DNA of 25,581 nt from a virus: the IMG/VR virus record IMGVR_UViG_3300033388_002016, positions 1 through 25,581 of that record, one strand, 5' to 3'. Of the stretch, positions 1 through 25,190 are shown in pieces. Position numbers and translations under genes: made by a program. The notes beneath the pieces are model-generated. The model saw only the letters and a program-made list of their open reading frames with translations. It was not told the origin of the DNA and did not search any database. Numbering within the stretch: the first letter of the stretch is position 1; each line of letters opens with the position of its first letter.

Positions 1-1
1 A

Positions 2-118
2 ATGGACATCACCTGGCAGGGCAAGGAACAGTCGCACCTCGCGGTTGGCTCCATGTCTATGAACGCTTGCCTCATCGACGACCTCGGTGGGTATCGCGTC
101 CTTTCAACGGAGACCTAA
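2..118 (+). CDS. C-terminal fragment of capsid-region gene (partial)
   Basis: The reading frame enters from the left edge and ends at TAA 116-118, leaving about 38 residues that finish in ...GGYRVLSTET. The ATG at position 2 is probably internal, because the window starts there. In T7-type phages the gene directly before a hairpin and the tail tubular A gene is the major capsid protein, so by position this is most likely the capsid C-terminus. The fragment is too short and too weakly conserved to prove it. A 93-aa gene starts just behind its stop, with its GGAG ribosome-binding sequence inside the last codons here. Confidence 0.55.
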   Translation: MDITWQGKEQSHLAVGSMSMNACLIDDLGGYRVLSTET

Positions 119-119
119 A

Positions 120-401
120 TTGAAAACACTACTCAAATTTGCTCTCCGGTTCCTTCCTTGTGCGTTTGATGCGACTCAAATGAATCGTCTTCAGATCGGC
201 ACAATCACTGTCTGGGTCTACAAGTCAGCCGTGGACAATCTCGCGACCATTATCACCAGTGCGTATTTCGATCCACACGCACCGCTGCTTAATAACGGCG
301 ACATTATCTTCATTGCTGATACGAATGTTCCAACGATCGACATGGCAACCGTCACTAGCGTTTCCAAAGCTACGCCGGTTACTGTCCTGAACGGAACTTA
401 G
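120..401 (+). CDS. small virion-associated protein of the capsid region, 93 aa, TTG start
   Basis: The protein is rich in beta-type sequence and follows a pattern I recall from small phage proteins encoded beside the capsid gene: W-x-Y-x-S, then LATI...AYF, then L-x-x-GDII, then V-T-S-V...PVTV. Its function is not known; a head-associated or decoration role is an inference from position. I chose TTG at 120 because GGAG lies 7 bases upstream within the end of the previous gene. The in-frame ATG at 180 has no ribosome-binding sequence, and a longer GTG form from 87 would overlap the upstream gene by 32 bases. The frame is open from about position 60, so a +1 frameshift fusion to the upstream protein cannot be excluded. 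Confidence 0.65.
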   Translation: MKTLLKFALRFLPCAFDATQMNRLQIGTITVWVYKSAVDNLATIITSAYFDPHAPLLNNGDIIFIADTNVPTIDMATVTSVSKATPVTVLNGT

Positions 402-412
402 AACCAGTAAGC

Positions 413-464
413 AAAGGAGTCGGGCCGGGGTTAGCTAGTCTAGCCTCGGCCCTATTTGCATATG
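413..464 (+). promoter_or_regulatory. Shine-Dalgarno separated from its start codon by a hairpin
   Basis: A near-perfect ribosome-binding sequence AAAGGAG (413-419) precedes the gp11-like gene, but 42 bases lie between it and ATG 462, and no other ribosome-binding sequence is visible nearer. The 31-nt hairpin 422-452 fills most of the gap. If folded, the effective spacing to ATG 462 falls to about 11 nt (420-421 plus 453-461), or 5 nt to the alternative TTG 456. This resembles the known phage T4 gene 38 arrangement, where a hairpin brings the two elements together. Confidence 0.55.
422..457 (+). terminator. GC-rich hairpin between capsid region and tail genes (possible intrinsic terminator)
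   Basis: Arm 422-434 (GGGCCGGGGTTAG) pairs with 440-452 (CTAGCCTCGGCCC) over 13 base pairs, two of them G-U, with a 5-nt loop CTAGT. It is followed by TATTT, a weak U tract. The position matches the terminator that follows the capsid gene in T7 (T-phi), which supports a partial terminator that lowers tail-gene expression relative to capsid. The poor U tract makes termination uncertain. Confidence 0.5.
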
Positions 465-1100
465 GCTGAAGCGGATCGTTTAGAAAACTCAAACAAGGCG
501 TGTCTCGCCGCAGGCGTCAATCCCATAACAAGTTTCACCCAGGGAACTGCCGAGGCAATTTTTTGCAACGAATGGTACGAGCTGATCGTCTTGGCCGAGA
601 TTTCGGTTTACAAGTGGCGCTTCGCTACCAAGACTTTTGACCTGTCTCCGAACATTCTCGCCGATCCTCCTGATACTCGGTACAACATCGCGTACCAGAT
701 CCCGAATGATGTGCTGTCTGTTGATACGCTTCTGGTCAATGACGGTGGTTCGGCCGCGTCGAACCGAAGTCGAGTAATCGACTACGATCGTTTTCAAGAT
801 CAGGTTCACACGATGGACACGGAAAACGATGTCGTATTTTTGAAGTATCGCTACCGCGCTGATGAATCCCTTTGGAATCCTTACTTCCGTTTGCTTGTCG
901 TGTACCGGCTGGCGACGATGCTTTCATTCTCTATTGCTCGCAGGGAAGGTGTTGCAGGTTCACTAAAGAATCTGGCTGATGAGCACTACCGCAGAGCAAG
1001 GACCGAAGACGCTCAGGCTCAGACTAACCAGAAGGTCAACCTCCGTAAGATCGTTCGGAATAGGTCAGGGAGTCTCGATAGATTCTGGCGGCAGCGGTAA
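462..1100 (+). CDS. tail tubular protein A (T7 gp11-like adaptor)
   Basis: This 212-aa protein is close in length to T7 gp11 (196 aa) and lies directly before a clear gp12 homologue. Family-like features are an N-terminal stretch A-C-L-A-A-G-V-N-P-I, an early N-E-W-Y-E-L region, K-W-R-F-A-T-K, and a C-terminal helical part (R-L-A-T-M-L-S...R-R-A-R-T-E-D-A-Q-A) ending in basic residues. In T7 this protein forms the ring joining the portal to the nozzle. Start: ATG 462 (TTG 456 is possible); neither has a nearby ribosome-binding sequence, see the hairpin entry. Its stop TAA shares one base with the next start (TAATG). Confidence 0.85.
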   Translation: MAEADRLENSNKACLAAGVNPITSFTQGTAEAIFCNEWYELIVLAEISVYKWRFATKTFDLSPNILADPPDTRYNIAYQIPNDVLSVDTLLVNDGGSAASNRSRVIDYDRFQDQVHTMDTENDVVFLKYRYRADESLWNPYFRLLVVYRLATMLSFSIARREGVAGSLKNLADEHYRRARTEDAQAQTNQKVNLRKIVRNRSGSLDRFWRQR

Positions 1101-3301
1101 TGCCTTTCTTCCGCAATTTCCAAACCAACTTTTCAGGTGGGTTGTTGTCCGAGTCGATGCTTGGTCGCGTCGACCTGGCTCAGTACGAGAACGGTTGCAG
1201 AGAGCTCACTAACTGGTGGCCGAAGGTCACTGGTGGTATGCGCCGTCGACCGGGTTCGATCTTCCTTGCCGAACATGAGTTTGCAGTCCGCATCGAGGCT
1301 TTCATATTCTCGGAGACTCAGACTTACCTATTCGCGTTCTGCTGGAGTGGTGTCGATACCGCTGACGATCAGATCAATATCTATGACGAAGTAACCGGCA
1401 CCCTCATCGATACGGTTCAGATTACTGGCATTGCGTGGACCGACGTGATTATCAAAACGATGTCGATAACGCAGACGGCTGATGTCATGTTCCTCGCGCA
1501 TGAGCTTTGGAACACGGTAATGATTCGCCGCACTGGTGCATCGTCCTTCGTTCAGGAAGCATACGACTTCGAGGGCGTTGGACTTAATAATGATTATCCG
1601 AAGGCTATGCCTTTCGTTAAGTTTGAGTCGCTTGCCAATGCGATCGAAGTCAACGGTAAGGATGATGGCGACAGCGTTACCATTACATCCAATGAGCAAA
1701 TATTTGAAGCTCGTCATGTGGGTCGTGCAATCCGCTATCGCGGCAAGCAGATTTTCATTGATTCTGTTGCAGCTCCTCCATCGTTCACTGCGACCGGCAC
1801 GATCCTCGAGGACTTAGATCCGGGTGCGGTGCTTCAGTTTGAAGCAAACGATGCTGCGAGTGATTTTGAGATTGATGAAATAATTGTAGGTCGTGACTCT
1901 GGCGTGAAAGGCCAGGTCATCGATAAATCGACCAACGAAATTACTATCGGAATGATCGGCGGTCTTTTCCCACCCCTATCGAGTGAACAAGTTGAGGGGC
2001 TTACCAGCGGAAATGTCGCAACGATAACAGCAAACTCGAACGTGAATCCGGTGCTGAGTAGAGATTGGGATGAGGAAGCTTTCACTCCGACGCATGGTTA
2101 CCCTTCCGTTATCGAGTTCCACTCGCAGCGCCTTTGGCTTGCAGGTAGTTCCTCACTTCCAGCCCATATCTTCGGGTCGAGGGTTGCTGCGTTTTTTAAC
2201 TACGATGTAGGAGATGCGTTCCCTGCCGATTCAATTCAAGTGGTGATCTCTGACAAACAAGTAAACAAGATCAACGACATTGTTAGTGGTCCTCATCTAC
2301 AGGTATTTAGTGATGCCGGCGAGTTCTACGCTCCGCAGAGTGAAAATGAGCCGTTACAGCCAGAAACATTCAACCTTATTAAGCAAACTCGCTACGGAAC
2401 CAAAAGCCTAATCGAGCCAAAACTGTTCGATGAATCTACGATATTTGTGCAAGCGCAGGGAAATGCGGTTCGTGAGTTCATTTGGGTATCCGGTATAGCC
2501 GGCTACGCATCTGAACCTATCTCGCTCATCGCTGAAGAATTTGTCACTGGCGTTACCGAAGTCGAAATTTTGTACGGTGGCTATGATCGGCCAGAGCAGA
2601 TTGCATTCTTCGTCAAGAGTGACGGAGACATAACTTGGTATCACGCATCTCGCCAAGAACAAATAAGATCATGGGGAATTTGGCAAACCCAGGGCAACTA
2701 CTTATCTCTGACAGTGATCGAGGACAAGCTGTACGCATTGGTCGAGAGGGCGACCGGCAGATTCCTCGAACGCTTTGAACTCGATGTCACTCTCGATTCT
2801 GCGGTTCAGGCAACTGACGCATCGAAACAGATATGGACTAGCGATGCTCCGCACTTGACCAACGAGGTTGTTCAGGTCGGAACCAGTGTTGACCAGTCGG
2901 CCCACGACCCTGATTACTATCTCGGTGAGTTCACTTATATCGCTGATACGATTAACCTTGATCCGATCAGTAGGGATAACATCACGATCGGCTTGGGCTT
3001 CACATCGACGCTTGAGATCATGCCGATTGAAATTAAGGATCAGGGAGGCGTAACGGGTGGGGTTCCAAAACGGATTATCTCGGCTGATGTTTACGTTGCA
3101 TCAACGGCGGCAATTCAGCTCGAAGGCAACCGGATAACAACCTTCCTCGCACAAAATGACTTGGGCGTGAAACCTGAACCGATTACCGGGTTGCAGAAAT
3201 TCTATCTGTTTGGCTACGACGAACGGCCAACGCTGACAATCGTGAACGACATACCAGTGCCATGTGAGGCGCTTGCTCTTGCGGCAGAGGTGGAATACTA
3301 A
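1100..3301 (+). CDS. tail tubular protein B (T7 gp12-like nozzle)
   Basis: The 733-aa protein (T7 gp12 is 794 aa) has the family's N-terminal pattern: F-S-G-G-L-L-S-E-S-M-L-G-R-V-D-L at about residues 12-27, then Y-E-N-G-C and G-G-M-R-R-R-P-G-S by residue 53. The middle carries the typical H-S-Q-R-L-W-L-A-G-S segment, followed by F-N-Y and D-A-F-P-A-D, and then an E-F-Y-A...Q-T-R-Y-G segment. It is the expected product next to gp11: six copies make the tail nozzle through which DNA leaves. Translation is coupled at both ends by TAATG overlaps. Confidence 0.92.
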   Translation: MPFFRNFQTNFSGGLLSESMLGRVDLAQYENGCRELTNWWPKVTGGMRRRPGSIFLAEHEFAVRIEAFIFSETQTYLFAFCWSGVDTADDQINIYDEVTGTLIDTVQITGIAWTDVIIKTMSITQTADVMFLAHELWNTVMIRRTGASSFVQEAYDFEGVGLNNDYPKAMPFVKFESLANAIEVNGKDDGDSVTITSNEQIFEARHVGRAIRYRGKQIFIDSVAAPPSFTATGTILEDLDPGAVLQFEANDAASDFEIDEIIVGRDSGVKGQVIDKSTNEITIGMIGGLFPPLSSEQVEGLTSGNVATITANSNVNPVLSRDWDEEAFTPTHGYPSVIEFHSQRLWLAGSSSLPAHIFGSRVAAFFNYDVGDAFPADSIQVVISDKQVNKINDIVSGPHLQVFSDAGEFYAPQSENEPLQPETFNLIKQTRYGTKSLIEPKLFDESTIFVQAQGNAVREFIWVSGIAGYASEPISLIAEEFVTGVTEVEILYGGYDRPEQIAFFVKSDGDITWYHASRQEQIRSWGIWQTQGNYLSLTVIEDKLYALVERATGRFLERFELDVTLDSAVQATDASKQIWTSDAPHLTNEVVQVGTSVDQSAHDPDYYLGEFTYIADTINLDPISRDNITIGLGFTSTLEIMPIEIKDQGGVTGGVPKRIISADVYVASTAAIQLEGNRITTFLAQNDLGVKPEPITGLQKFYLFGYDERPTLTIVNDIPVPCEALALAAEVEY

Positions 3302-3840
3302 TGGCTGACGGTGGTGCAACTTTCTATATAGCAATGGCGGCAATGGCGGCGGGAGCCGTTGTTACTACTCTTGACCAGATCGAGGCGAACAAACGTCGTG
3401 AACAGATCCTTGAGCAAGAGTTACGCGCGCTCGAGCTGAAGGCGCTTGATGATGAGAATGCAAGACTGATTCAGTTACGCCTGGCTAACGAACAAATGCT
3501 TGTTGCTAACAGCGGCATCGAGGCGTGGGCTTCCCCGTCACTGATTGCCGCGCGTGCTTTCAATTTCCAGATGGGCTTTGAAGATACTGCAAACATTCGA
3601 TTCAATAAGTTTTCTGCCCGAGCTGGCGTCTCTGCACAGATTGCAATTCTAAAAGCCAACAGCAGGGCAGTGGCTACCGCAGGAATCTTTGAGGTTGCTG
3701 CCATTGTCGCTGGCGGCTTGAATGCGCGAGCGCAACTGACGAAGACAACGACAACCAGCGTGAGCGCACAAGGGTTGCCGCACTCGCCTATTCCGACCCA
3801 ACCTAAAACACTGACTGTATTCGGGAATCCAAGTGGCTAG
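3301..3840 (+). CDS. internal virion/ejection protein (T7 gp14-like)
   Basis: At 179 aa it is close to T7 gp14 (196 aa) and sits between the gp12- and gp15-like genes as in T7. Residues 8-24 form a small-residue-rich hydrophobic helix (F-Y-I-A-M-A-A-M-A-A-G-A), followed by a charged helix with E-Q-I-L-E-Q-E-L and then N-S-G-I-E-A-W-A-S-P-S-L. A second hydrophobic helix lies near residues 125-137. In T7, gp14 is ejected first and forms the outer-membrane pore of the DNA transfer channel. The stop overlaps the next gene's GTG start by 8 bases. Confidence 0.82.
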   Translation: MADGGATFYIAMAAMAAGAVVTTLDQIEANKRREQILEQELRALELKALDDENARLIQLRLANEQMLVANSGIEAWASPSLIAARAFNFQMGFEDTANIRFNKFSARAGVSAQIAILKANSRAVATAGIFEVAAIVAGGLNARAQLTKTTTTSVSAQGLPHSPIPTQPKTLTVFGNPSG

Positions 3841-6454
3841 AGAAACCAGAAAAATCGGAATACGCACAGCGCAGGTCAGGCTACCGACATCGCAAAGCTT
3901 TGGCCCTGCTTTGGTCAAAACTGCTGCGAGCTTTGCTGATCGTGAATTTGCGAAGCTGGCCGACACGCGAACGCAGGAAGCAATCGTTGCTGCCAATGCG
4001 CTTAACTTCGAGCGTGACGGTGACGGCAACCTCATGGCGCCGACTGTGCCGATTGGTGAGAACGGCCTGCTCGCGCCAAGCATCTACGACCGCAAATACA
4101 CTCAGATGGTCGGCCAGCGTTATCTGCAACAGTTGTCGATTGACGTATCTGAGAACATTAACAAGATAGCTGCCGACAACCCGTTTGAACCTGATAAATT
4201 TCGAGCCCTTGCAGAAGGCTACGTTGCAAAGGTCACTGAGCTTGCACCTGATTACCTGAAGGCTGATGTCAACAACACGGCACAGGTGAAGATGGTTGAG
4301 CATTTCAATCACATCATTCGTGTAAGAGCCGAGCGCGATCACTCTGAGGCAAGAGGCTTACAGCTTCAGACTATTGACGGTCTCCAAGACGAAGTATCCG
4401 CCTACATTGCTGGAGGTGCTGATCAGGTTACTGTCGGTGCCGCCCAACTCAAAGTTCGAGCAGCTATCGAGCAGGGCGATGAGTTCAATTACTGGCTTGA
4501 TGATGAAAAGCAACTCATGGTCGATGCAACTGATCGTCTGTTTGCAGTCGCCACCATTAGCAAGCTGATTACCAGTATTCCGCAGAACGATCATGTTGCT
4601 TACTCCGATATGAGGGAAGCGTTACAAAGCTTTGCTCGGGGCGAAGGCGATTTCCCGATGGTGAACGAGCTTGGCGAGGTCGTTCATATCCCATTAGATG
4701 AAATGCCAATTAACCAAGCCGAACGAATTGCTATCGCTGATTTTGCAACTGGCATTCTCAATGACCAAGAGGGTTCATTCACGAACACTTTGGATGTGAG
4801 AGTCCAGCGAGATTGGGAGGACTTTTTCAATTGGTATTCACCACACGCGATGAAGTCGCTGACGACCGGAACGCCTATTGATATGAAAAGACTTGAGCGC
4901 GAGTTCAATAGGGCTCATATCAATGTTGTGACGAAGGGGTATGACGACACTCTCAGGGAAAAGATTCGCCAGCTTATGACGGATCAAGTTTCTCGCGGCT
5001 CTGGTGCACCGACGGCATTCGAGAAAGCATTCATTCCAGGTTGGATTGAATGGCACGCTCAGATGAATGAAGAACAAGAGAGATTGCGTAACGGCGTTCC
5101 GCGATCCGATTTTACGGAAGAACAACTCAACGATCATTGGCAGGCGGCTGTTCAGAAAATCGGCAACATCCCGGGCGGATACAGAGAGCAGAACAAGGGA
5201 GCTGCACAGCAGGTCAATCCGTTCTATACGGCGCTGACCGGCAAGGAGATGACGCGCGAGTATTACGCCGATGTGATTGACAATCCAGACAGCCCTGAGT
5301 GGCAAAGGCTTGAGAGTGTCGTTCCGCAGCGCATGGCGCGTATTGGTATCTGGCCGGACGAGCTGAGAGATACGATCATCGGACGGCTGATGAATCCAGA
5401 GGGTATGAATCAGGACACGCTTGATTCGACGTTGAGGCTTGCCCGCTTGTTTTGGGATCAGCCGACATTCAGGCGCAACATCATGGATGACTCTGCCATT
5501 GGTGGGGATCTCGGTCGTATGCTCAATTCAGTATTCAACAACAGTGGCCGCATACAGGTTGGGGATCTGCAAGAGAAAATGGAGAGATTCAGCGATCCCT
5601 CTTATTCGCCCTACCAAGATTGGATGAAAAGAGATGGAGAGTCGAAAACAGCGTTCATGAATGCCGCCAGGACGATCATCGAAAACTCACTTGAAGCAAA
5701 CTGGCGCTCACTTTGGACGCAACAGGGCCGCATAGCTGCACCGGAATTTGATTGGAATATGTTTGGAGACAACATTCCTTCTTTGCCGCTTGAGATTATG
5801 CGACAGGTAGAGCTCAAGTTGCAGGATCACGCTGGCGACATCAACGAGAAAAACCCGTCAGAGTTCATGCCGTTCATCGCCCAAGTGGTGAAAGAGGTAA
5901 TGAATGAAAACGACTACGGCACTACGAAGATTGGATACGACGCTAATCGATACACCAATTACAACGACACCGTTTGGTGGAAGCCGAAGACGTGGTTTGA
6001 TCTTAAACCAGTATGGGGAATTGCTTCTCGACCTCCTGAGAACTTTGCGGTTCACACAGAGGGAGTTCGCAGGGGCAGCCGAAATACAGAGCTGATGGAG
6101 TTTGTGTGGAAAGATTTTCAATCCGTTTTGGATGCTGCTGCCGAAGCGCGCGGCATGGATGAAACCTTTATCGCCGGAGTGAATGCAGGGCTTGTATATG
6201 ATTCAGCTCTCTCTGCTGCTCAGAGCAACGCTGGCGTATTCACTCGAACCTGGCGGATCGTACTTGTCGCCGACGATGGGCAACGAACAGAAATTCTCAC
6301 TATGGATGGTCTGTTTGATGGCCGGCCACTTCCGTTCAATCTCAATAAAGCAAGAAACGAATATAACAAGGTCATTGCAAAACGACGAGCTGATACATCG
6401 GCGCTTACTCAGATAGAGAGGGCCGCGGCCAAAGGGATTCCGATCTCACCGTAA
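3833..6454 (+). CDS. internal virion/ejection protein (T7 gp15-like)
   Basis: The 873-aa protein (T7 gp15 is 747 aa) starts at GTG 3833, eight bases inside the preceding gene; there is no good ribosome-binding sequence, so coupling to the upstream gene is likely. Sequence features are a basic N-terminus, then long stretches of soluble helical character with many acidic and basic residues and no membrane segment. The last third has W-W-K-P-K-T-W-F-D-L and a D-D-G-Q-R-T-E-I-L-T strand-like region. The gp15 assignment rests mainly on order and size; in T7 gp15 forms the periplasmic tunnel together with gp16. Confidence 0.75.
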   Translation: MARETRKIGIRTAQVRLPTSQSFGPALVKTAASFADREFAKLADTRTQEAIVAANALNFERDGDGNLMAPTVPIGENGLLAPSIYDRKYTQMVGQRYLQQLSIDVSENINKIAADNPFEPDKFRALAEGYVAKVTELAPDYLKADVNNTAQVKMVEHFNHIIRVRAERDHSEARGLQLQTIDGLQDEVSAYIAGGADQVTVGAAQLKVRAAIEQGDEFNYWLDDEKQLMVDATDRLFAVATISKLITSIPQNDHVAYSDMREALQSFARGEGDFPMVNELGEVVHIPLDEMPINQAERIAIADFATGILNDQEGSFTNTLDVRVQRDWEDFFNWYSPHAMKSLTTGTPIDMKRLEREFNRAHINVVTKGYDDTLREKIRQLMTDQVSRGSGAPTAFEKAFIPGWIEWHAQMNEEQERLRNGVPRSDFTEEQLNDHWQAAVQKIGNIPGGYREQNKGAAQQVNPFYTALTGKEMTREYYADVIDNPDSPEWQRLESVVPQRMARIGIWPDELRDTIIGRLMNPEGMNQDTLDSTLRLARLFWDQPTFRRNIMDDSAIGGDLGRMLNSVFNNSGRIQVGDLQEKMERFSDPSYSPYQDWMKRDGESKTAFMNAARTIIENSLEANWRSLWTQQGRIAAPEFDWNMFGDNIPSLPLEIMRQVELKLQDHAGDINEKNPSEFMPFIAQVVKEVMNENDYGTTKIGYDANRYTNYNDTVWWKPKTWFDLKPVWGIASRPPENFAVHTEGVRRGSRNTELMEFVWKDFQSVLDAAAEARGMDETFIAGVNAGLVYDSALSAAQSNAGVFTRTWRIVLVADDGQRTEILTMDGLFDGRPLPFNLNKARNEYNKVIAKRRADTSALTQIERAAAKGIPISP

Positions 6455-9400
6455 TGGCCAACAAGATACAAGACATCACTGGGCTTGCACCTCCGAGTTT
6501 TAGTAAGCACGCTCCGCGTGAAGGTAGCTGGCTCGGATCTGTTCGCAACGCTTATATGCTGGACACATCGATCGGCCAGGCCGTCATGTTTGCGGCAACG
6601 GCGAATGCGTTTGGCGTGCCTCTAACTCCAGCGGACAGGCGACTCGTTCCCGGCTATAACCCGTATCTTGGCGATGAGCTAAAAGGCTTCGAGTCTTTTT
6701 TCGATGAGTTCTCTGAATCTACCTCGCCCGAAGAAACCGCGATGATCAAGCAGATGGTCGAGAACAATCTTGATCTTCGCACTCAGCTCGAGGATTGGGG
6801 TGGCACTCGTTTGTTCACCGGCCTGCTCGATCCTGTCAACCTGATACCCGTCCCTTTCGCATTGGGTAAAGGGTTCGCTGAAGGTGCCAGAAGATCATTG
6901 AAAGTCGGCGTTCCTATCGTCGGCACTACTGAGGCGATTCGTCACGCCATAGATCCAACCTCTACGCCGGAAGAAACCGGGGCAGCGATCCTTGCTGGCT
7001 CAGTGTTCATGGGGTTGATTGGCGGTGCTGTCGGCACGATTCCAAAGAACACGATGCGTCTCGATGTCGCACTCAATAAGCTGATTCCTCCGGCTGGTAC
7101 AACCTCGATGTTCGCTGGCGTTCCTCACTCTGCTGGCGGATCTCCGAAGAACCTGTTCGCTCGAGTAACCGCCGCACTCAAGTCGGCCGCCAGTTACGGC
7201 GACCCTGCATGGAAGCAGGTTGATCCTGAAGATGTAAGCGTTCACATAGACGATAGTTTCCCAGATCGCAAACTGATTACCGTTCGGCACAAAGACGGCG
7301 CCGAGCTCGTTACCGCGTGGCACGTTGGCGACGAGCTGCAAATCGGTATTGAGGTTCCAGTCGAGTTACGCCGGCAGGGACTCGGTTCCTTTGCGATGCG
7401 TGAAGCTCTCAAGTACGCGGAGAATAACGGCCTGATAGTGACGGCTCACGGCAGCGTGTCAAAAATGGCGTTGCAAATGTTTAAGGGCTTAGAAGATCAG
7501 GGTTTCAACTTCAAGGAAAACCCGAACTTCAAAACTGATCCTGATGGGACTCGAGTCTCTACCGACGGCGAGCCGCTGTTTGTAATTGATCGTCTCATTG
7601 ATCCTGATAAGAAGTTCATCCCGAAAGAAGCGCGGGACGCTATTGATGACCTGAACGGTCAGGCCGACAGAGCTAACATTGAAGTCAAGATCCTCGATGA
7701 CGCAATCGAGGTAATGACGGCCAAGTGGAAAGACGCGCCTACCGCTGGCGGTGCGAAGACTAAAGCGAAGGCTGCTCTCAGGCAGCTCGTTGAGCAACGG
7801 GCGCAACTGAAGCGCGATGCGATAATCGCGACCAGGAATGCACAGGACATAAACATCAAAGCTGTGCAGATGCTCGATCAGCAAACAATCAAGGATTGGG
7901 ATCTGTTGCCTACCGGGTACAACACCATTCTTGGCAAGCTCGATCAGTTCCCGTGGTGGACGCTGATGAAAACCCCGTTCCGCGATCTCGCGCCTGAACT
8001 TGGCGTGAAGTATCAGATGTTCGCATTGCGAATGGCGTCGACTCCCGGCCTGAACAACAAGGGCAACAAGCTCGGCCACAACACAGGCGACAGTGTTGAG
8101 AATTTGGTCATTGAATACACCGGCAGGTGGCTCGGTGCTACTCGCGAAGCGCAACGGATCTACCGCGTTTACACAGGCCACGGCGAATCATCCGGACAGG
8201 TCAAGTATTTCTTTATCGACCAGCAGCAACGAGTCAACGGAAAGCTTGATGAGTGGAGCGGCAAGGACGCGCCTACCGAGACGCCTGAAGGCAAGCTCAC
8301 GATCAGGGAGTTTGATCGTCAGATCACTATGGCGATCGCCAATGGTGGCAAGCATGACGTTCCAGAGGTTGCAAAGGCCGCGGCGCTCTACATCCCGGTA
8401 CTGAAATCAATCGCTGATGAGGGCAAGAAGCTCGGCGTGTTCGCTACACAGGTCAACATCGCAAGACGCATTACAAAAGTCGAAAAGAACCTTGCCGAAT
8501 TTGATGCCAAGTGGTCTGAGAAATACCAGATCGGAGAAGCGAGCAGCCTTGAAGGTCTCGATGCTACGGTTCGACTGATAAAAACCATTCGGGAAAGCCG
8601 TCAATCAGTGAACGGTGCGAAGAACAATATGCTCCCCATGAAAGATGGGGTCAACCAAGTTGAGTTTGACTTCCCACTCAGAGAGGGCGGCAGAGAGAAG
8701 GTAACGGTTGAGGTGCTTATGAACCCGACCAGGCAGGAGCTTGCTCGATGGGGTGGCCGTGAGGTCAAACAAGTTCGCCATGCTGTTGATGAAGAAGGGA
8801 ACCTCTTTGTATGGGATGCGGAGAGCCCGGCGCTGCACGATGACTTCGGCAGTGCCGGAATAGACATAAGCCGTCATGGTGGTGTCGATGATGCTCAAGC
8901 GTCGCCAACTGAGCTATTCGATGTTCTCCACAGGGAGTTCGCGGAGGAACTTAGGTTCGCAGAAACCGGCGAAGACCTGAGCATTCACAGGAATGCCGAT
9001 GACTCCCGAGACTTCTTCCCGATACCGAACAGGGTGCTTGACGAGCTCGAGGCCAAAACGAACCTCATGGATCTTCCTGAGCTGCCGCCTGGGTTGGCAG
9101 ACCTGCGTAACAAGCTTGAGCTTGAGAAGATGGACCTCGAGGACATGGCGCAGGGTTACATCGATGCCGACAATCCGAACTTCATCCACAGAATGTGGCT
9201 CGCCGAAGAAGTGAAGGCACAGGAAGTGAGGCTCAAGGAGATCCTGACTCGCGAGTTCGAAGCGAAACCGAAGCAGGTATTCAGAGACGCAGACGGAAAT
9301 GCCATTCCTGAGCATCCGGATATTATTCGCGCTCGGGTCAATGAAACGTATGCGTCGATCTTGCATGAGGCAGAGACAGGCAACAACGGAGCCTACGCAC

Positions 9401-18570: not shown

Positions 18571-18830
18571 AATCATGGATGTGGGGAGTAGGCGGTGCAG
18601 TGTTAGCGTCGGTTGCCATGCTATTTATTACAAATTTCCTTGCTGCTAATAAAGCGGGGGCCGATGCACTTGACGATGATAAAATCAAAGCCATCATCAA
18701 AGCGGAACTGGCTCTCGCATTAGTAGTTGACATCAATGGCGAGACATTCACCTACGGCCAAGCGTTATCGAGGATCGATCACAACCTGACCGTAGTGCAA
18801 CAGTCGCTTGCCAACCTCTCCGAAGATTAG
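18567..18830 (+). CDS. small single-span membrane protein
   Basis: The 87-aa protein has one membrane helix at about residues 7-26 (G-V-G-G-A-V-L-A-S-V-A-M-L-F-I-T) preceded by a short N-terminus, and then an acidic/mixed soluble domain (D-D-D-K-I-K-A-I-I-K, L-S-R-I-D-H-N-L). It is the last gene of the rightward block, coupled to the secreted protein by ATGA. A holin-related or envelope role is possible but not shown. Its stop TAG overlaps the stop of the converging gene. Confidence 0.6.
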   Translation: MKSWMWGVGGAVLASVAMLFITNFLAANKAGADALDDDKIKAIIKAELALALVVDINGETFTYGQALSRIDHNLTVVQQSLANLSED

Positions 18831-20134
18831 AACTTCAACCACTTCGGCCGCCACCCATTAGCTTTGACCTTCGTGATTAGCAGCTTCCGAATTGCTGTCG
18901 CTGTCGCATCCTTGAGATGAACTAGCTTCAGTTCCTTTGCGATCGCGATCAGCGTGGTCTTGTTCTTGATCCCCTTCCAGAACGTCTCGGTTGGCTGCCA
19001 GTTCTGAACATCCTTTAAGCCAATGGCCTTGGCTACCGAGTCACTGAACTCGTTGTTGTACGTCTGCCACCTCCATGCGGTGATGATAGCCAGTCGACTG
19101 AGCAGATCCTTTTCGCTCATCTTGTACAGCAGCTTGGGATTCGTATCCTTACTGATCTTGTTGAACGCTTCCTCCATTGCGGAGTAGTCCAGGCTGCCAT
19201 AGATATCTTCTTCGTAGGCTGGTCCCTTGACTGCGCCCATGTTGATCTGATCCATGCGCCAGCTATCGTGGCTGCTCAACATGCAACAGATGTTGACGAC
19301 GAGCGCCGCCTTGTTGTCGTCAAGCAGCTCGCCGCGCACGCCGTTGTGTCGGTGCTGTCTGATGTACGCGCTGAACGCTTGGGATATTTCGGGCTGCGCC
19401 TCCGGCTTGCCCGCGGATCCCTTCGCCTTCGGTGCCTTGCCGCTGTCGTTGAGCCTCTTGTAGCCGGCATGAAACTCGACCCTTCCGGATCTCTTCGGGC
19501 CGTCGTAATGCTCGAGGTCGAAGATTGCATGCTTCTCCATGAACATACCCTTTGGCCCGACCAGCCAATCTTGGATCTCCCAATCCCTCGGTCGTGTCTT
19601 GGCTGTCAGCTTGCCGTACCTGATGACATCCTTCGGCGGCGCGATCGCGAGTGCCTGGAGTGTGCGATCACCAATCTCCTCGGCGTCCGCCAAATCGAGA
19701 ATTTTCTTGGGCAGCGATCCTATCGCGAGCAACTGCTGCACCTCTCTCTCGGTCTTTGAAAAGCGTTCGCCAATTTTTTCTACAGGCATACCGGCTTTGA
19801 ACAGTTTGTTGAATGCAGCGTAGTACTGCATCGCAGTCATACCCCGTCTGTCCACATTCTCGGACAAGGAGATTTCTGTCCGTTCGCTTGGTGTTAAGGC
19901 AGTGACATCGACGCAATCGATCTCCTCGATCCCTGCCTTTGCTGCACCAAGCGTCCGGAGAAACCCCGCCACCACTTCGTACCTTCCGTCACCGTTCTTG
20001 GCCACCGATGGTGGATTGATAATCCCCCGGTGGGTGATGCTGTCCGCCATCATTTGAATGTCTTCCTTGCTGTGCTTGCTACGCACGTTCGACACTGATG
20101 GTTTCAGCTCGTCAACCTTCACTCTTATTTGCAT
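18827..20134 (-). CDS. ParB-like DNA-binding protein (orphan, no ParA seen)
   Basis: The 435-aa protein has the ParB/RepB/Spo0J N-terminal domain: I-I-N-P-P-S-V (38-44), V-V-A-G-F-L-R-T-L-G-A-A-K-A-G (54-68) in the place of the canonical G-E-R-R-x-R-A box, and E-N-V-D-R (92-96) matching the C-motif E-N-x-x-R. A helix-turn-helix (about 116-146, V-E-K-I-G-E-R-F-S...E-V-Q-Q-L-L-A-I-G-S-L-P) follows. The C-terminal region ends G-W-R-P-K-W-L-K-F, recalling mobile-element ParB types. No ParA ATPase or parS-like palindrome is seen here. It lies at the end of a recombination operon. Start ATG 20134 overlaps a tiny upstream frame. Confidence 0.8.
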   Translation of the reverse strand: MQIRVKVDELKPSVSNVRSKHSKEDIQMMADSITHRGIINPPSVAKNGDGRYEVVAGFLRTLGAAKAGIEEIDCVDVTALTPSERTEISLSENVDRRGMTAMQYYAAFNKLFKAGMPVEKIGERFSKTEREVQQLLAIGSLPKKILDLADAEEIGDRTLQALAIAPPKDVIRYGKLTAKTRPRDWEIQDWLVGPKGMFMEKHAIFDLEHYDGPKRSGRVEFHAGYKRLNDSGKAPKAKGSAGKPEAQPEISQAFSAYIRQHRHNGVRGELLDDNKAALVVNICCMLSSHDSWRMDQINMGAVKGPAYEEDIYGSLDYSAMEEAFNKISKDTNPKLLYKMSEKDLLSRLAIITAWRWQTYNNEFSDSVAKAIGLKDVQNWQPTETFWKGIKNKTTLIAIAKELKLVHLKDATATAIRKLLITKVKANGWRPKWLKF

Positions 20135-20210
20135 CTTCTTTTAACCTCTCTATGTTACCGCAGTCGCCGCACTTGTAGTCGTACTCAATCTTAGAAGGGA
20201 ATGTCGTCAT
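20112..20210 (-). CDS. possible 32-aa zinc-ribbon-like peptide bridging SSB and ParB genes
   Basis: This tiny frame starts inside the codons for the SSB acidic tip and ends inside the ParB start region. It contains Y-D-Y-K-C-G-D-C-G-N, like the first knuckle of FmdB-type zinc ribbons. A strong GGGGAG lies 9 bases before its ATG on the minus strand. Only one Cys pair is present, so it would need to dimerise to bind zinc. Short length and double overlap keep the confidence moderate. Confidence 0.42.
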   Translation of the reverse strand: MTTFPSKIEYDYKCGDCGNIERLKEDANKSEG

Positions 20211-20664
20211 CGAAATCGTCTCCCCTTGCTCCGCGCGCGATCGTGCCGGCCTGTTGGGGGCCGCCACTCCCGCTGCCCCGACTCCTCTCGCTACCGGGAG
20301 TCTCGTTTGTATCCCAACCCTTTCCTTTTTCGATGACAAATAATTCTCCCTTGACCTGTGGAACGACTACTTCCGTGATGTACCTCTTTTCTCCGTCCTT
20401 GTCGTAGGTGCGTGTCTTCAGCTCACCCTCGATGTACACGCGCGTACCCTTCTGCAGCCAGTTCTCGCAGATGGTGACCAGGTACGGGTTAAACACGACG
20501 ATGTTATGCCAACTGGTGTCCTCTTTTCTCTGACCAGAAACCTTGTCTTTCCATCTCCGTGACGTTGCGACCGAGAACTTGCACAGGTTTGTGCCGCTCC
20601 CCATCATGTGATACGTCGGCTCTTGTCCGATGTGTCCCATTAAAATGACCTTATTCAGATCCAT
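20191..20664 (-). CDS. ssb: single-stranded DNA-binding protein
   Basis: The 157-aa protein has the bacterial SSB pattern: N-K-V-I-L-M-G-H-I-G near the start, F-S-V-A-T-S-R-R-W, S-W-H-N-I-V-V-F-N, K-G-T-R-V-Y-I-E-G-E-L-K-T-R-T-Y (the OB fold), then a glycine/serine-rich linker and the acidic tip D-D-D-I-P-F that recruits partner proteins. It coats ssDNA during replication and recombination and lies near the Rad52-like annealing gene. AAGGAG is 8 bases before ATG 20664. The start lies inside the 3' end of the upstream gene, indicating coupled translation. Confidence 0.95.
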   Translation of the reverse strand: MDLNKVILMGHIGQEPTYHMMGSGTNLCKFSVATSRRWKDKVSGQRKEDTSWHNIVVFNPYLVTICENWLQKGTRVYIEGELKTRTYDKDGEKRYITEVVVPQVKGELFVIEKGKGWDTNETPGSERSRGSGSGGPQQAGTIARGARGDDFDDDIPF

Positions 20665-20863
20665 CTTTTAATCTCCTTGCCTCAAGCACTAATGTTCTAA
20701 ATGGATTTGGCCCCGGTTTCTCCTCACAGATCAGTCGATTCAAACTGACCCACTGAGCAGCCCAATAACCAAACATGAAAAATTTATATCGAGCCAGCGA
20801 ATCAAGCGCCTTAGTCAACGCTTGTCGCCGGTACTCGATTGCGTCACTTCTTGTCTGACCCAT
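20651..20863 (-). CDS. small conserved phage protein beside SSB, 70 aa
   Basis: The sequence has R-R-Q-A-L-T-K-A-L-D-S-L, then K-F-F-M-F-G-Y-W-A-A-Q-W-V-S-L-N and P-N-P-F. I recall this F-G-Y-W-A-A-x-W-V-x-L-N plus P-N-P-F pattern from small phage proteins encoded near replication genes; the function is unknown. It overlaps the upstream annealing-protein gene by 20 bases and the SSB gene by 14, so it is translated as part of the module. The middle is hydrophobic but too broken by polar residues for a confident membrane span. Confidence 0.65.
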   Translation of the reverse strand: MGQTRSDAIEYRRQALTKALDSLARYKFFMFGYWAAQWVSLNRLICEEKPGPNPFRTLVLEARRLKDGSE

Positions 20864-21578
20864 CTTTCAGCTCGGTCTTTGTCTTGAGAACCCATGACCG
20901 CATTTCAGTTGCAGTTGTTACAGGCAGACCAGCCATCCAGAGTTTGTAATTTTCCATTACCTTATCTATCGACTCTGCGTTCTTGCAGTCCTTGATCGCT
21001 TTGATGAACTTCGCTCTGTCTTCCGCGTATGCCTGTTCCGATGCGGTTGCTGTCTGATCCTTTTCCTTCTTCAGATCGGCAACGTATTTATTGTCGTCGA
21101 ACATTCCGAGGAACACGTCAGCGTTAAAGCCGAGGTGAGAGAGCAGCTTGGTCAGGCCGTCAGTCGACGCCTTCTTGTAAGCATCCGTGTCGGGCTGCTT
21201 GAATGATCCGTCCTTGTTGAGTGACTGCAACATGGCGCCACCTCGTACCGGCCCGAACTCTCGACGGTGACCTGGCGTTGCCATGCCTTCCCATTGGCCG
21301 AACTCAGACCACCAGAATGTAACGTCACACCATGCCAAGATGCGTCCGTCCGTCATGTGGATCTCACCGTACTCGTTTGCGTATCCCCATCCTTCGCCGA
21401 TGGGTCCAAACAATCTCGTCGCTTCCATAATCTGAGAATGCGCGTCGATCGCTGTGAACTTTCGGCCGAACGATACTTCCTTCGTGTGATCCACGTCGGT
21501 CCTGCTGACCTGATCCCACACCCGCATCGTTCCCTTTTCTTCGTTCGCCTTCTTGATGTCTTCCTCGCTGTCTGCCAT
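20844..21578 (-). CDS. putative Rad52-like single-strand annealing protein
   Basis: The 244-aa protein has F-G-P-I-G-E-G-W-G-Y (57-66), A-W-C-D-V-T-F-W-W (82-90) and D-A-Y-K-K-A-S-T-D-G-L-T-K-L-L-S-H-L-G-F (132-151) followed by D-D-N-K-Y-V. The A-x-T-D-G/A-L-x-x-L/A-L-x-x-x-G-F block is the signature of Rad52-type annealing proteins. Encoded with SSB and a YqaJ-type exonuclease it would anneal strands for phage recombination. The C-terminal 80 residues are a charged helical tail, possibly for SSB contact. AGGAAAGG precedes the ATG. Assignment rests on motif likeness. Confidence 0.68.
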   Translation of the reverse strand: MADSEEDIKKANEEKGTMRVWDQVSRTDVDHTKEVSFGRKFTAIDAHSQIMEATRLFGPIGEGWGYANEYGEIHMTDGRILAWCDVTFWWSEFGQWEGMATPGHRREFGPVRGGAMLQSLNKDGSFKQPDTDAYKKASTDGLTKLLSHLGFNADVFLGMFDDNKYVADLKKEKDQTATASEQAYAEDRAKFIKAIKDCKNAESIDKVMENYKLWMAGLPVTTATEMRSWVLKTKTELKDGSDKK

Positions 21579-21587
21579 TACCTTTCC

Positions 21588-21914
21588 TCATGCGTTGTTG
21601 AGCTGAAAAAATTTCGGATGATCGAGCTTGTGCTTGGCCATCCATAACCGAGCCAATCCCGGTGTCATGTTGTTGCTGAGTTTGAACAGTGCCTTGCCCT
21701 GCTTCTCTCGCAGGTCACTGTTCCATCGCATCACCTCGATGATGGTGCGGGCTGAGTATCGCTGTCGCTTGGCTGCCATTGTCAGGCCGTGCCTTTCGAA
21801 CTGCTCCCAAATGTGGTCATTAAATTGGAGCCAATGAAAGAACCCTTCGGGATACTTCTCTTTCTCCAGCGTCCTCAAAAAATCAATGTGCAAAATTTCC
21901 TGTAGCCGTTTCAT
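21588..21914 (-). CDS. widespread phage protein of unknown function, 108 aa
   Basis: Features are N-D-H-I-W-E-Q-F-E, R-Q-R-Y-S-A-R-T-I-I-E-V-M-R-W and F-K-L-S-N-N-M-T-P-G-L-A-R-L-W-M. I recall this Y/F-S-A-R-x-I-I-E-x-x-R-W plus N-N-x-x-P-x-x-A-R pattern from a family common in phage early regions, where the partner and role are unknown. The sequence is basic and mostly helical, suitable for nucleic-acid binding. Its start overlaps a 53-aa gene as ATGA and its stop lies 9 bases before the annealing-protein start. Confidence 0.68.
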   Translation of the reverse strand: MKRLQEILHIDFLRTLEKEKYPEGFFHWLQFNDHIWEQFERHGLTMAAKRQRYSARTIIEVMRWNSDLREKQGKALFKLSNNMTPGLARLWMAKHKLDHPKFFQLNNA

Positions 21915-22072
21915 TTACTTTCCCTCTCTCGTCTCATGCGACCCGCTTCCCACGCTTCCTCGGCTGCCGCCCTGCCGATTCGGTTCTCAGTGAATAGACG
22001 CATCCATTTCTTGCGATCGTCCTCGTACCCGGCTCGTCTCATGTGCGCCAATTTTTGTTTTCGATTACTCAT
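21911..22072 (-). CDS. 53-aa charged protein, coupled at both ends
   Basis: The frame ATG 22072 to TGA 21911 encodes a very basic/acidic helical protein: M-S-N-R-K-Q-K-L-A-H-M-R-R, then W-M-R-L-F-T-E-N, R-A-A-A-E-E-A-W-E-A-G-R-M-R-R-E-R-E. Its start overlaps the upstream stop and its stop overlaps the downstream start, both as ATGA, and it fills what would otherwise be a 150-bp gap in a gap-free operon. The W-E-A-G-R pattern recalls small phage proteins. Function unknown. Confidence 0.72.
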   Translation of the reverse strand: MSNRKQKLAHMRRAGYEDDRKKWMRLFTENRIGRAAAEEAWEAGRMRRERESK

Positions 22073-22320
22073 TCGCCTACCCTCAGATGAATACGGTCAC
22101 GGAGATCCCGGCCACACCCGGCGCAGGAATCATCACCCTTCTCTTTTCCGATTGAACTGTGCGTATGCCGGCATACCTTGTCGCGTTCGTAGCACCATTG
22201 GCACTGGTGACAGCTCCCGTTGTGTTCGTCGACCGTCCCCTCGTTATCGCAATCGGTGTCCGGACACTTGGCTATCCAAAGCAGATCGCGTGTTAGCTTG
22301 ATGATTGCCTTCGTACTCAT
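22069..22320 (-). CDS. cysteine-rich zinc-binding small protein
   Basis: The 83-aa protein has cysteines at 19, 24, 37, 40, 43, 50, 66 and 69 plus two histidines (52, 54), arranged as C-x4-C, C-x2-C-x2-C and C-x2-C. This suggests one or two zinc sites. Similar cysteine-rich small proteins occur in phage early operons, without known role. I chose ATG 22320 (MSTKAI...) because GGGGAG lies 9 bases upstream and the start overlaps the nuclease stop as ATGA; an upstream in-frame ATG would overlap the nuclease gene by 58 bases. Confidence 0.65.
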   Translation of the reverse strand: MSTKAIIKLTRDLLWIAKCPDTDCDNEGTVDEHNGSCHQCQWCYERDKVCRHTHSSIGKEKGDDSCAGCGRDLRDRIHLRVGE

Positions 22321-22907
22321 ATCCACTTTCTCCCCTTCTTTTGCGGTGGCCTGGTCCCTGTCTCGAGCATCCATTGGAATAATTTTTCTTTTTCAAACAG
22401 GGCGTCATCGTATGGCGGGTCGTATGGAACCTTGACCCACTCGTATCGTGTGTTGAGGTAGATCACCGACAGGTAGGCGTGCGGAGATTTGGTGATTCGC
22501 ATGGCGTGCTGGAGCTGCGGCATATACTTGGCCAGCAGATTCTCAGGTCGCCACATCATGTTTATGCACTTGGCCTCGAGCGGGATGAACGCCTCGCCAG
22601 TGCAGATGGTTAGATCATCGTCCTCCTCGGGCTCAAGCAGACCATCAGGCAGGTAGGTGCACCACGGATACTCGGCCAAGCGTAGTGGAGATGTAGGCCA
22701 ATCAGGATCGAGGAAGACCTCACGGCCCGTATCAGCCTCGAACAGCTCAAGATTGAATGGTTCCAGACGCTTCCCGATCTCGGCGGCTAGGCCGTACTCA
22801 GGCGGTGTGAGGTGGGCTTCGGTCTTTCGGTCGTAGAGTTCGGCCCATTGGCCGGCTTGGAGATGAACGGCATCGGATGCGCCGATCGTTTTACTTCTGT
22901 CATACAT
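22317..22907 (-). CDS. YqaJ/lambda-exonuclease-like recombination nuclease
   Basis: The 196-aa protein has the family blocks in order: I-G-A-S-D-A-V (8-14), G-K-R-L-E-P-F (45-51), T-G-R-E-V (60-64), P-D-G-L-L (87-91), E-A-K-C-I (111-115) and Q-L-Q-H-A-M-R-I-T (131-139). D88, E111 and K113 are the expected D...E-x-K metal-binding catalytic residues. Such exonucleases make 3' overhangs for an annealing protein, here probably the Rad52-like gene downstream. Start ATG 22907 has GAGAGG 9 bases upstream; a longer form to 22985 would cross the divergent gene start. ATGA links it to the cysteine-rich gene. Confidence 0.85.
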   Translation of the reverse strand: MYDRSKTIGASDAVHLQAGQWAELYDRKTEAHLTPPEYGLAAEIGKRLEPFNLELFEADTGREVFLDPDWPTSPLRLAEYPWCTYLPDGLLEPEEDDDLTICTGEAFIPLEAKCINMMWRPENLLAKYMPQLQHAMRITKSPHAYLSVIYLNTRYEWVKVPYDPPYDDALFEKEKLFQWMLETGTRPPQKKGRKWI

Positions 22908-22968
22908 TCGCTTAGTCCTCTCTTGACTATGAATGGTATCAGAACAGAGCCCGTGGTACTGTTGCGAA
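22908..22968. promoter_or_regulatory. divergent intergenic region between nuclease and HTH gene
   Basis: This 61-bp gap separates the leftward nuclease operon from a rightward island. It contains TTGACT at 22923-22928 but no good -10 at standard spacing. A small inverted repeat AACAG (22943-22947) / CTGTT (22959-22963) with an 11-nt spacer could be an operator. No strong promoter is recognised. Confidence 0.35.
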
Positions 22969-23151
22969 ATGTCCACAGACGTCATGAATACAGATGAGCT
23001 TGCGGCCTACCTTGAGGTAGCCAAGCAAACCCTTTTTCGGTGGCGGCAGAGTGGCTACGGTCCTGCCTGGATGCGGGTTGGCCCGCGGATTATTCGGTAC
23101 AAGGTCAGTGATGTGATGGAGTGGGAGGCGAGGCTTCGTGAGCAATCTTAG
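22969..23151 (+). CDS. AlpA/Xis-like helix-turn-helix DNA-binding protein
   Basis: The 60-aa protein follows the MerR-type HTH_17/AlpA pattern: M-N-T-D-E-L-A-A-Y-L-E-V-A-K-Q-T-L-F-R-W-R, then G-Y-G-P-A-W-M-R-V-G and I-R-Y-K-V-S-D-V-M-E-W. Such proteins act as small regulators or excisionases. Possible starts are ATG 22969, ATG 22984 and ATG 22933; none has a clear ribosome-binding sequence. It is transcribed against the surrounding leftward genes and could control the divergent nuclease operon or its own island. It overlaps the next gene by 14 bases. Confidence 0.8.
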   Translation: MSTDVMNTDELAAYLEVAKQTLFRWRQSGYGPAWMRVGPRIIRYKVSDVMEWEARLREQS

Positions 23152-23446
23152 GTTCGCAAGGCAGACGGGTACACCCGACGCTAATCAGGCCAGCATCATC
23201 GATGCTTTGGTGAAGATCGGATGCACCGTCTACGACATTGATAAGCCAGTTGATTTGTTAGTGGAGTTTCGAGGGCTTTGGCTGGTCTTAGAAGTGAAGA
23301 CGAAGAAGGGCAAGCTCGAGGACAGTCAGAAAAGATTCTTTGAAAAAGTGAAAGCGCCCGCATTCATAGTGCGGGACATTGAGGAAGCAGTAGCAGCGGT
23401 ACAAACAGCATGGAGACGCACATTAAAGTCTGTGGTCGAATCGTAG
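23138..23446 (+). CDS. small restriction-fold (VRR-NUC-like) nuclease
   Basis: The 102-aa protein has D-A-N-Q-A-S-I-I-D-A-L (14-24), D-K-P-V-D-L-L-V (35-42) and a following E-V-K motif (W-L-V-L-E-V-K-T-K-K-G-K-L) with Q later. This is the D...E-x-K core of PD-(D/E)XK nucleases and resembles small phage proteins often grouped with VRR-NUC. It may cut branched DNA. Start GTG 23138 lies inside the HTH gene with GAGG upstream. Stop TAG 23444-23446. A further short frame starts in its last codons. Confidence 0.72.
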   Translation: MSNLRFARQTGTPDANQASIIDALVKIGCTVYDIDKPVDLLVEFRGLWLVLEVKTKKGKLEDSQKRFFEKVKAPAFIVRDIEEAVAAVQTAWRRTLKSVVES

Positions 23447-23583
23447 AAGTCATCGGCTTCACTGCCGACGGTCGTGTGTGGGTGCGTGATGCCTGCTCTC
23501 AGTTCAAGATCCTGTTGAGCCAGCCCTTTGGTTCAGGCTCCAGCTCCACCGACTCGCCCTCGAGCGCGAGCTCGTCCGGGTAG
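23410..23583 (+). CDS. possible 57-aa protein overlapping the converging DUF932 gene
   Basis: From ATG 23410 the frame reads M-E-T-H-I-K-V-C-G-R-I-V-E-V-I-G-F-T-A-D and continues with V-W-V-R-D, a beta-type pattern resembling real small phage proteins, and ends in a serine-rich tail that coincides with antisense of the DUF932 C-terminus. It overlaps the nuclease gene by 37 bases and the minus-strand gene by 85. No clear ribosome-binding sequence is present, so coupling to the nuclease gene would be needed. Confidence 0.42.
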   Translation: METHIKVCGRIVEVIGFTADGRVWVRDACSQFKILLSQPFGSGSSSTDSPSSASSSG

Positions 23584-24317
23584 TCGACATCACAGAAGTC
23601 GTCAAGCAGCAGGTGCAGGTTAATAGTTTTCTTGGGCAATTCAATGAGCTGGTTTGTAGAAGCTGGCCCAAGTGCAGCCGTCACTGCATTGAAATAGCGC
23701 CACACACTTTTGTCGCCGTGGTCTGCCGACGGGTTGTGCCATTCCTCATTTACTACACGGATGCGTTTCAGATTGATGATGCCCTGGCGGTACGTCTCCA
23801 TGATGAGATGGTCAGCCGTGTAATCGTCAAGGGGTGCTTCCCGATACTCACGGAACCGTACATCTTGTCGCTTTCGCATCACTCGAACCTTCTTGATTGC
23901 CCCCTCGAAAATCTCAGGAAGCTCATTCCAAATGTTCGGCGTGTGCTTTCGCCCTACGACGATGTCCCCCGAAAAGGACAGGTTATCGCAGATGAATACC
24001 TTTGCACCAAGAGCGAGTGAAGCAATGAAAGTCTTGTCGTGTGAATTGCGAAGGGCTGCCATAGTTGCGTGAGCTGCGTCGGGATCTTCATCTTCGTGTT
24101 GGATCTGCATGAGTGCGAAGTAGTGAGCTGCTTCACGGTTCAGGAAGTGTTGAGGATTGGTGATCGAATAGCCTTGATCGAGTAGGCGGGACTCTGCCAT
24201 TTCATAGAATTGATGATGAGGTATCGGTAAGTGAGTCTGAGTTTTTTCTGGAATTGGCAAGCCCATTAGGGCGGGGTACGGAACTGCTTCGGCTCCACAG
24301 TGCATCATTAAGTTCAT
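23499..24317 (-). CDS. DUF932 family phage/plasmid protein
   Basis: The 272-aa protein has the DUF932 core: N-S-H-D-K-T-F...L-A-L-G-A-K-V-F-I-C-D-N-L-S-F-S-G at about residues 92-118 and an R-Y-F-N-A-V-T-A-A region later. The family is common in phages and plasmids and is thought to act on DNA, but no biochemical role is established. Start ATG 24317 is preferred: GAGGACT lies 7 bases upstream and its ATGA overlap joins the upstream gene; the longer frame to 24350 would overlap more. Its 3' end is overlapped by a possible + strand frame. Confidence 0.82.
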   Translation of the reverse strand: MNLMMHCGAEAVPYPALMGLPIPEKTQTHLPIPHHQFYEMAESRLLDQGYSITNPQHFLNREAAHYFALMQIQHEDEDPDAAHATMAALRNSHDKTFIASLALGAKVFICDNLSFSGDIVVGRKHTPNIWNELPEIFEGAIKKVRVMRKRQDVRFREYREAPLDDYTADHLIMETYRQGIINLKRIRVVNEEWHNPSADHGDKSVWRYFNAVTAALGPASTNQLIELPKKTINLHLLLDDFCDVDYPDELALEGESVELEPEPKGWLNRILN

Positions 24318-24511
24318 GCTGAGTCCTCTTTTGCGTTGAGTTGATCGCATTCATGTTGAGCCCAACTCTTGAATGCGAATGTGCGTATCCTGTGCTGGCT
24401 GTCGTCCCTCCGTAACAACTCACCAGTTTTCAAATCCATTATTCCATGATTGGAACTCTCCAATTCGTGAGGAGTGAACCGCTCGATATTCGGCTTGATA
24501 TTAAATCCCAT
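24314..24511 (-). CDS. small hypothetical phage protein, 65 aa
   Basis: The sequence has G-I-M-D-L-K-T-G-E-L-L-R-R and F-A-F-K-S-W-A-Q-H-E-C-D-Q-L-N, a pattern of short phage proteins with two strands and a helix (Y/I-x-D-x-x-T-G...A-x-x-x-x-D-x-L-N); no function is known. AAAGGAGG precedes ATG 24511, the best ribosome-binding sequence on this strand, so this may be a highly translated gene. It overlaps the DUF932 gene by 4 bases. Confidence 0.62.
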   Translation of the reverse strand: MGFNIKPNIERFTPHELESSNHGIMDLKTGELLRRDDSQHRIRTFAFKSWAQHECDQLNAKEDSA

Positions 24512-24520
24512 GATCCTCCT

Positions 24521-24877
24521 TTAGTTTGGCCCAACCATGATCCCTGGTGGTGCCGGTATCGTTTCATCCATTGGCCGCCACAGATGCAGACAATTCGGAT
24601 GACAGTTGATGTGATCGCTCGCGCCTACGTGCAGTTGCATTACGACGTGTTCTGGATTCCACCAAAATTTTCTTTTTATCCAGTCCATGTCCTCATAGCT
24701 TGGCGTCCTTTTGCGCCGTGATACTGATACGTGTTCCCAACCCATCCCATTTGCCCAAATAACTTTGAGCCCTTTAGGTTTGATTAAAGCTGCCCCATTC
24801 TCAACACCGCTCGGCGGGTATCCGGGTATCTGGACAAGATACTGCGACAGCTCAGGTGGGCATCCGAAATGTGGCAT
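24521..24877 (-). CDS. DUF7694-like phage protein
   Basis: The 118-aa protein shows N-G-M-G-W-E-H-V-S-V-S, then R-T-P-S-Y-E-D-M-D-W-I-K-R-K-F-W, V-M-Q-L-H-V and C-L-H-L-W-R-P, ending P-A-P-P-G-I-M-V-G. This is a pattern I recall from a conserved small phage family (I believe DUF7694) of unknown role. Its start overlaps the upstream stop as TAATG. The stop is 9 bases before the next start. Conserved histidines and the L-H-L-W-R-P block suggest a compact enzyme-like or metal-binding fold, an inference only. Confidence 0.7.
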   Translation of the reverse strand: MPHFGCPPELSQYLVQIPGYPPSGVENGAALIKPKGLKVIWANGMGWEHVSVSRRKRTPSYEDMDWIKRKFWWNPEHVVMQLHVGASDHINCHPNCLHLWRPMDETIPAPPGIMVGPN

Positions 24878-25185: not shown

Positions 25186-25190
25186 TAGCC

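Follow-up and report, generated by a model that had tools for sequence, protein, structure and literature searches.

Ribosome-binding sites in which a hairpin shortens the path between the Shine–Dalgarno (SD) sequence and the start codon have been described for two genes of bacteriophage T4. A review (PMC3014915) gives the SD–AUG spacing of gene 38 as reduced through a hairpin from 22 to 5 nt, and that of gene 25 (Malys and Nivinskas 2009, as described there) from 27 to 11 nt. It adds that initiation drops on destabilising changes and that the gene 25 arrangement does not extend beyond close T-even phages. No further natural hairpin-bridged ribosome-binding site was found in the literature searched, which is no proof of absence. 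In T7, the T-phi hairpin and its U-tract stand at the junction of gene 10 and gene 11, and the SD (AAAGGAGG) follows T-phi.

The locus described here lies in an uncultured, podovirus-like phage. The window, meaning the whole stretch of DNA analysed, covers positions 1 to 25,581 (25,581 nt) of IMG/VR record IMGVR_UViG_3300033388_002016. The window resembles gene 25 in having an SD too far from the AUG, an intervening hairpin and a predicted bridged gap of 11 nt, and in an arrangement that is conserved within a clade and absent from more distant relatives. The two differ in linear gap (27 nt in T4, 42 nt in the window), and the phage type and gene are unrelated; unlike the gene 25 hairpin, that of the window is terminator-like, and its relatives have a non-bridging hairpin at the same junction. 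Gene 38 likewise has a structure that shortens the SD–AUG path, from 22 to 5 nt as against a predicted 42 to 11 nt in the window. The analogy with T7 drawn in an earlier note on this sequence holds for position, in that a hairpin with a U-tract occupies the capsid/gp11 junction, but a phrog_18004 gene intervenes between capsid and hairpin in the window, the SD precedes rather than follows the hairpin, and T7-type RNA polymerase was not found in the longest relatives.

Results

The features of the junction all lie on the plus strand. The window opens with the C-terminal end of a major head (capsid) protein gene (2..118), which has the same C-terminal sequence as the protein of a relative, L015; the latter was assigned to phrog_3437, a major head protein family, with an E of 2e-42, and the 38-aa capsid piece of the window (2..118) had no PHROG match of its own. 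Between the capsid gene and the hairpin is a small gene with a TTG start (120..401, 93 aa) assigned to phrog_18004, a family of unknown function found at the same place in L015, Methylophilales phage MEP301 and pelagiphage EXVC031P and kept in all three clades. The stop of this gene is 11 nt ahead of AAAGGAG (413..419; anti-SD duplex -8.2 kcal/mol), and there follow the 5' arm of the hairpin, GGGCCGGGGTTAG (422..434), the loop CTAGT (435..439), the 3' arm, CTAGCCTCGGCCC (440..452), and a 9-nt spacer, TATTTGCAT (453..461), which begins with TATTT, the weak U-tract that a terminator would have if the hairpin acts as one. The gp11-like (tail tubular protein A-like) gene, encoding 212 aa (462..1100; phrog_394, E 9e-24), starts at ATG 462, 42 nt from the last G of AAAGGAG. 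These positions, the 13-bp stem (422-434/440-452) and the 42-nt gap, reported in the earlier note, could be read directly from the sequence. It was also correct that AAAGGAG is the only SD available to the gp11-like gene, as no SD-like sequence occurs between the hairpin and ATG 462 of the window; many other window genes have ordinary SDs. Of the two starts that had been offered, ATG 462 is the better, the protein N-terminus being conserved from the Met at 462 onward, whereas the in-frame TTG 456 lies just 3 nt from the stem and is absent in L001, and it was rejected as a start. Elsewhere in the window, 18827-25581 on the minus strand encodes a ParB-like protein, a single-strand DNA-binding protein, phrog_7838 (annotated exonuclease) and a RecE-like exonuclease, and 3833-6454 encodes an 873-aa protein, unmatched in PHROG, in the internal-virion-protein region.

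The 13-bp stem comprises 9 G-C, 2 A-U and 2 G.U pairs (428.446 and 431.443), and the isolated hairpin has a calculated energy of -23.9 kcal/mol. Folding of a 106-nt region gave z = -2.3, with 5 of 200 shuffles equally good, and the stem was predicted to be paired in context with a probability of ~1.0. A permissive scan of the window for an SD, a hairpin of at least 9 bp and a start returned the junction site and two weaker sites within coding sequence, and simulated windows yielded a mean of 0.55 sites in the same scan, so that the architecture alone could arise by chance and a single sequence is not decisive. Predicted accessibility of the SD across relatives was only moderate (mean unpaired 0.16-0.81), and opening the SD, spacer and start jointly was predicted to cost 2.8-8.5 kcal/mol. 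An outer helix between the spacer and the SD region (GCAAA/TTTGC in the window) was discarded, as it appeared in some folds only and inconsistently among relatives, as was a small ORF within the hairpin initiated via AAAGGAG, for which the window has no start codon at a usable distance. The hairpin had no match in Rfam. Nor does it appear to be a shared mobile element: a 9-bp stem, GGGCCGGGG..CCTCGGCCC, was present in no fewer than 119 viral stretches, roughly half of these occurrences being within long ORFs, but a rearranged control stem was present in 105, which indicates that most of this spread is to be expected of G+C-rich stems.

Seventeen further loci encoding the start of a gp11-like protein (loci are numbered with the prefix L), together with others found later, have the same arrangement as the window. 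Sixteen distinct sequences, with gp11-like protein identities of 62-82%, were aligned. All 208 stem cells of this alignment form standard pairs, 6 of the 13 pairs show two-sided changes, and none of 500 shuffles matched the alignment on any of five measures. When the partner was shifted by a single column, pairing fell to 60-67%, a comparison that favours the unslid version in that the stem pairs were taken from the window hairpin; the two-sided changes are independent of this choice. The stem is fully paired in L015, where it has been largely replaced, and in L008, where it is longer. Retained and new G.U pairs point to an RNA rather than a DNA structure. Judged by these comparisons, in which conservation is the decisive evidence, the junction hairpin is not a chance fold.

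An SD upstream of the hairpin (-6.1 to -8.2 kcal/mol) was present in 16 of 16 clade members, and an SD downstream of it in none of the 16; as background, -6 or better is reached by 5.7% of 14-nt stretches drawn at random from the window. In all 16, the SD ends 2-3 nt from the stem and the stem lies exactly 9 nt from the ATG, while hairpin length among relatives runs from 30 to 38 nt, the length differences being only at the apex. This gives linear gaps of 41-50 nt but bridged gaps of 11-12 nt throughout, L016 being counted from GGGGAG (5' spacer 3, bridged gap 12); counted from AAGGGG, its values are 5 and 14. Identity between relatives is 34% in the 5' flank of the SD, about 90% in the arms and 79% in the 9-nt spacer. 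The upstream-SD state forms a single clade in the tree (support 96/99). No DNA similarity was detected between window positions 1-8000 and phage records, and no gp11 relatives from prophage or host were found in genome contigs.

More distant clades served as a natural control. MEP301 and EXVC031P proteins used as queries gave 80 loci each, of which a non-redundant subset was examined. Both phages have the gene order major head protein, phrog_18004 protein, hairpin and gp11-like gene, the head protein family in this order being shown for MEP301. The MEP301 clade is like the window in gene order, in a covarying hairpin and in the TATTTGCA tail, but differs in that the SD follows the hairpin: the hairpin and an SD between it and the ATG were each present in 27 of 27 loci, with a spacer of 23-25 nt, and a real SD ahead of the hairpin in 0 of 27. 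Covariation of the MEP301 hairpin exceeded shuffles on all but two of the five measures. In this clade (L171-L250, e.g. L171 at about 2260-2304) the tail TATTTGCACATTT is nearly invariant and the stem covaries, and a lower helix could form between a TGCA 5' of the hairpin and the one in the tail. The EXVC031P (SAR11-phage) clade (L251-L330) has a strong junction hairpin in 26 of the 26 loci examined and a convincing SD on either side of it in 0 of 26; in one subgroup (L311-L323), the ATG is 8-10 nt after the hairpin and an SD is absent entirely, so a hairpin near a start is by itself no proof of bridging. Vibrio phage 284E43-1 has a hairpin, a U-tract and then an SD. Among the clades compared, an upstream SD without a downstream one is confined to that of the window, and the presence of the hairpin in all three clades and in T7 indicates that it is part of the junction whether or not it bridges. 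The branching of the three clades relative to one another is weakly supported, and T7 gp11 was rejected for rooting the change in SD position as too distant, with a long branch. With the deep branches weak, either SD position, upstream or downstream, may be ancestral.

A d'Aubenton-Carafa-type score D, in our own uncalibrated implementation, gave the window about 0, T7 T-phi +3, L015 +36, L005 -23 and L016 -27. The G+C-rich hairpin is present throughout, and the U-tracts are short and variable (TATTT, CATTT, CAATT). The phage-encoded T7-type single-subunit RNA polymerase (PF00940) that characterises T-phi proper was found in none of the records searched, namely those of L015, L017, L011 and L010 (27-39 kb, maybe incomplete), MEP301 and EXVC031P, while the T7 control was detected. 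A terminator role of the window hairpin is possible on these features. The T-phi-like terminator proposed in the earlier note is matched by the tail of L015, which is clearly terminator-like, but not by the poor tails of L005 and L016 or by the polymerase search.

Discussion

The best explanation of the arrangement is that the gp11-like tail gene has a split ("accommodated") ribosome-binding site, a reading to which we assign a probability of about 78% and which draws on the conserved fold and SD, the fixed spacers, the absence of a second SD and the different layout found in relatives. The mRNA at 422-452 (31 nt) would fold into a very stable hairpin, and a 30S subunit paired with AAAGGAG at its 5' foot would leave the hairpin outside the path from SD to start, which would then measure 2 + 9 = 11 nt rather than 42 and place ATG 462 in the P site. 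We infer from the comparisons both that the ribosome uses AAAGGAG and that translation depends on folding. Like the T4 sites, the gene has its one usable SD farther from the start codon than is normal, a stable structure (predicted and comparative) between the two and a predicted bridged path of 11-12 nt; fixed spacers flanking a hairpin of variable length are the strongest clue for bridging. Of the two halves of the earlier note's reading, bridging has gained from comparison, since SD, hairpin and 9-nt spacer are conserved together, hairpins change length only at the apex and no upstream SD occurs in relatives whose SD lies downstream, whereas the T-phi-like terminator has gained little. The covariation check that it had proposed came out in its favour, with every stem cell paired, two-sided changes in six pairs and the SD never lost, and relatives lacking both hairpin and upstream SD were not encountered.

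Against bridging stand the only moderate accessibility predicted for SD and start, the subgroup of SAR11-phage relatives whose ATG closely follows a hairpin although they have no SD, and a stem that is longer and far more stable than a bridge should need; this same excess fits a hairpin that is mainly a leaky transcription terminator or an RNA 3'-end stabiliser, as T-phi is in T7, and that may bridge as well. This explanation does not exclude bridging and is a fair possibility, though less likely than not. It is consistent with the junction hairpin in three clades and T7 and with D scores of about 0 in the window (against +3 for T-phi) and +36 in L015, but the U-tracts are short and variable, L005 and L016 score negatively and searches of the longest relatives brought up no T7-type RNA polymerase. 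There is no room for a promoter ahead of the ATG, which also speaks for it and means that termination, if it occurs, would fix how much tail product is made relative to capsid. The main translational rival of bridging is a standby site, in which the upstream AGGAG merely recruits the 30S subunit beside a structured start and initiation is SD-independent, with no fixed bridged geometry. The SAR11-phage relatives that start without an SD just past the hairpin and the A/U-rich spacer would suit such a site; spacers of 2-3 and 9 nt that stay fixed while the hairpin varies in length fit a measured distance rather than loose recruitment, and we regard it as unlikely.

The near 90% identity of both arms between relatives goes beyond what pairing needs and could reflect an operator, to which a phage or host protein binds and represses gp11 translation. 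However, the loop varies in sequence and length, L015 replaces much of the stem, and neither a candidate protein nor an Rfam match was found, which makes an operator improbable. Least probable, and very much so, is that AGGAG and hairpin are adjacent by chance or mere descent and that gp11 translation is coupled to the upstream small gene. Its stop is only 11 nt ahead of the SD, and the bare architecture arises by chance 0.55 times per simulated window under permissive thresholds, but stop and start are 60 nt apart with a -24 kcal/mol hairpin between them, the SD is kept in 16 of 16, and the 5' flanks of the SD are 34% identical compared with about 90% for the arms.

With bridging as the preferred reading, the junction hairpin is probably older than its use as a bridge, because more distant phages that share the gene order have it too, either ahead of their SD or without a convincing SD, and its older role was probably not bridging. 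In the lineage of the window, an older junction hairpin would have come to be flanked by an SD at its upstream foot, with the downstream SD missing. As hairpins stand at the junction in relatives that do not bridge with them, they are likely to have some further role, for example in attenuation or in shielding the ends of capsid mRNA. More speculatively, an older capsid-tail attenuator hairpin might have become a translation bridge through a shift of the SD to its other side, such that it would limit readthrough into the tail genes and at the same time provide the first of these with its ribosome-binding site on every readthrough transcript; we put this forward only tentatively.

The origin is apparently separate from that of the T4 case, and the site would thus be an apparently independent example in unrelated phages, with a larger linear gap bridged than in T4. 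The relatives that retain the junction hairpin but have the SD on its opposite side provide a clean natural experiment. Programs that scan for SDs and starts only about 5-15 nt upstream would label the gp11-like gene as SD-less.
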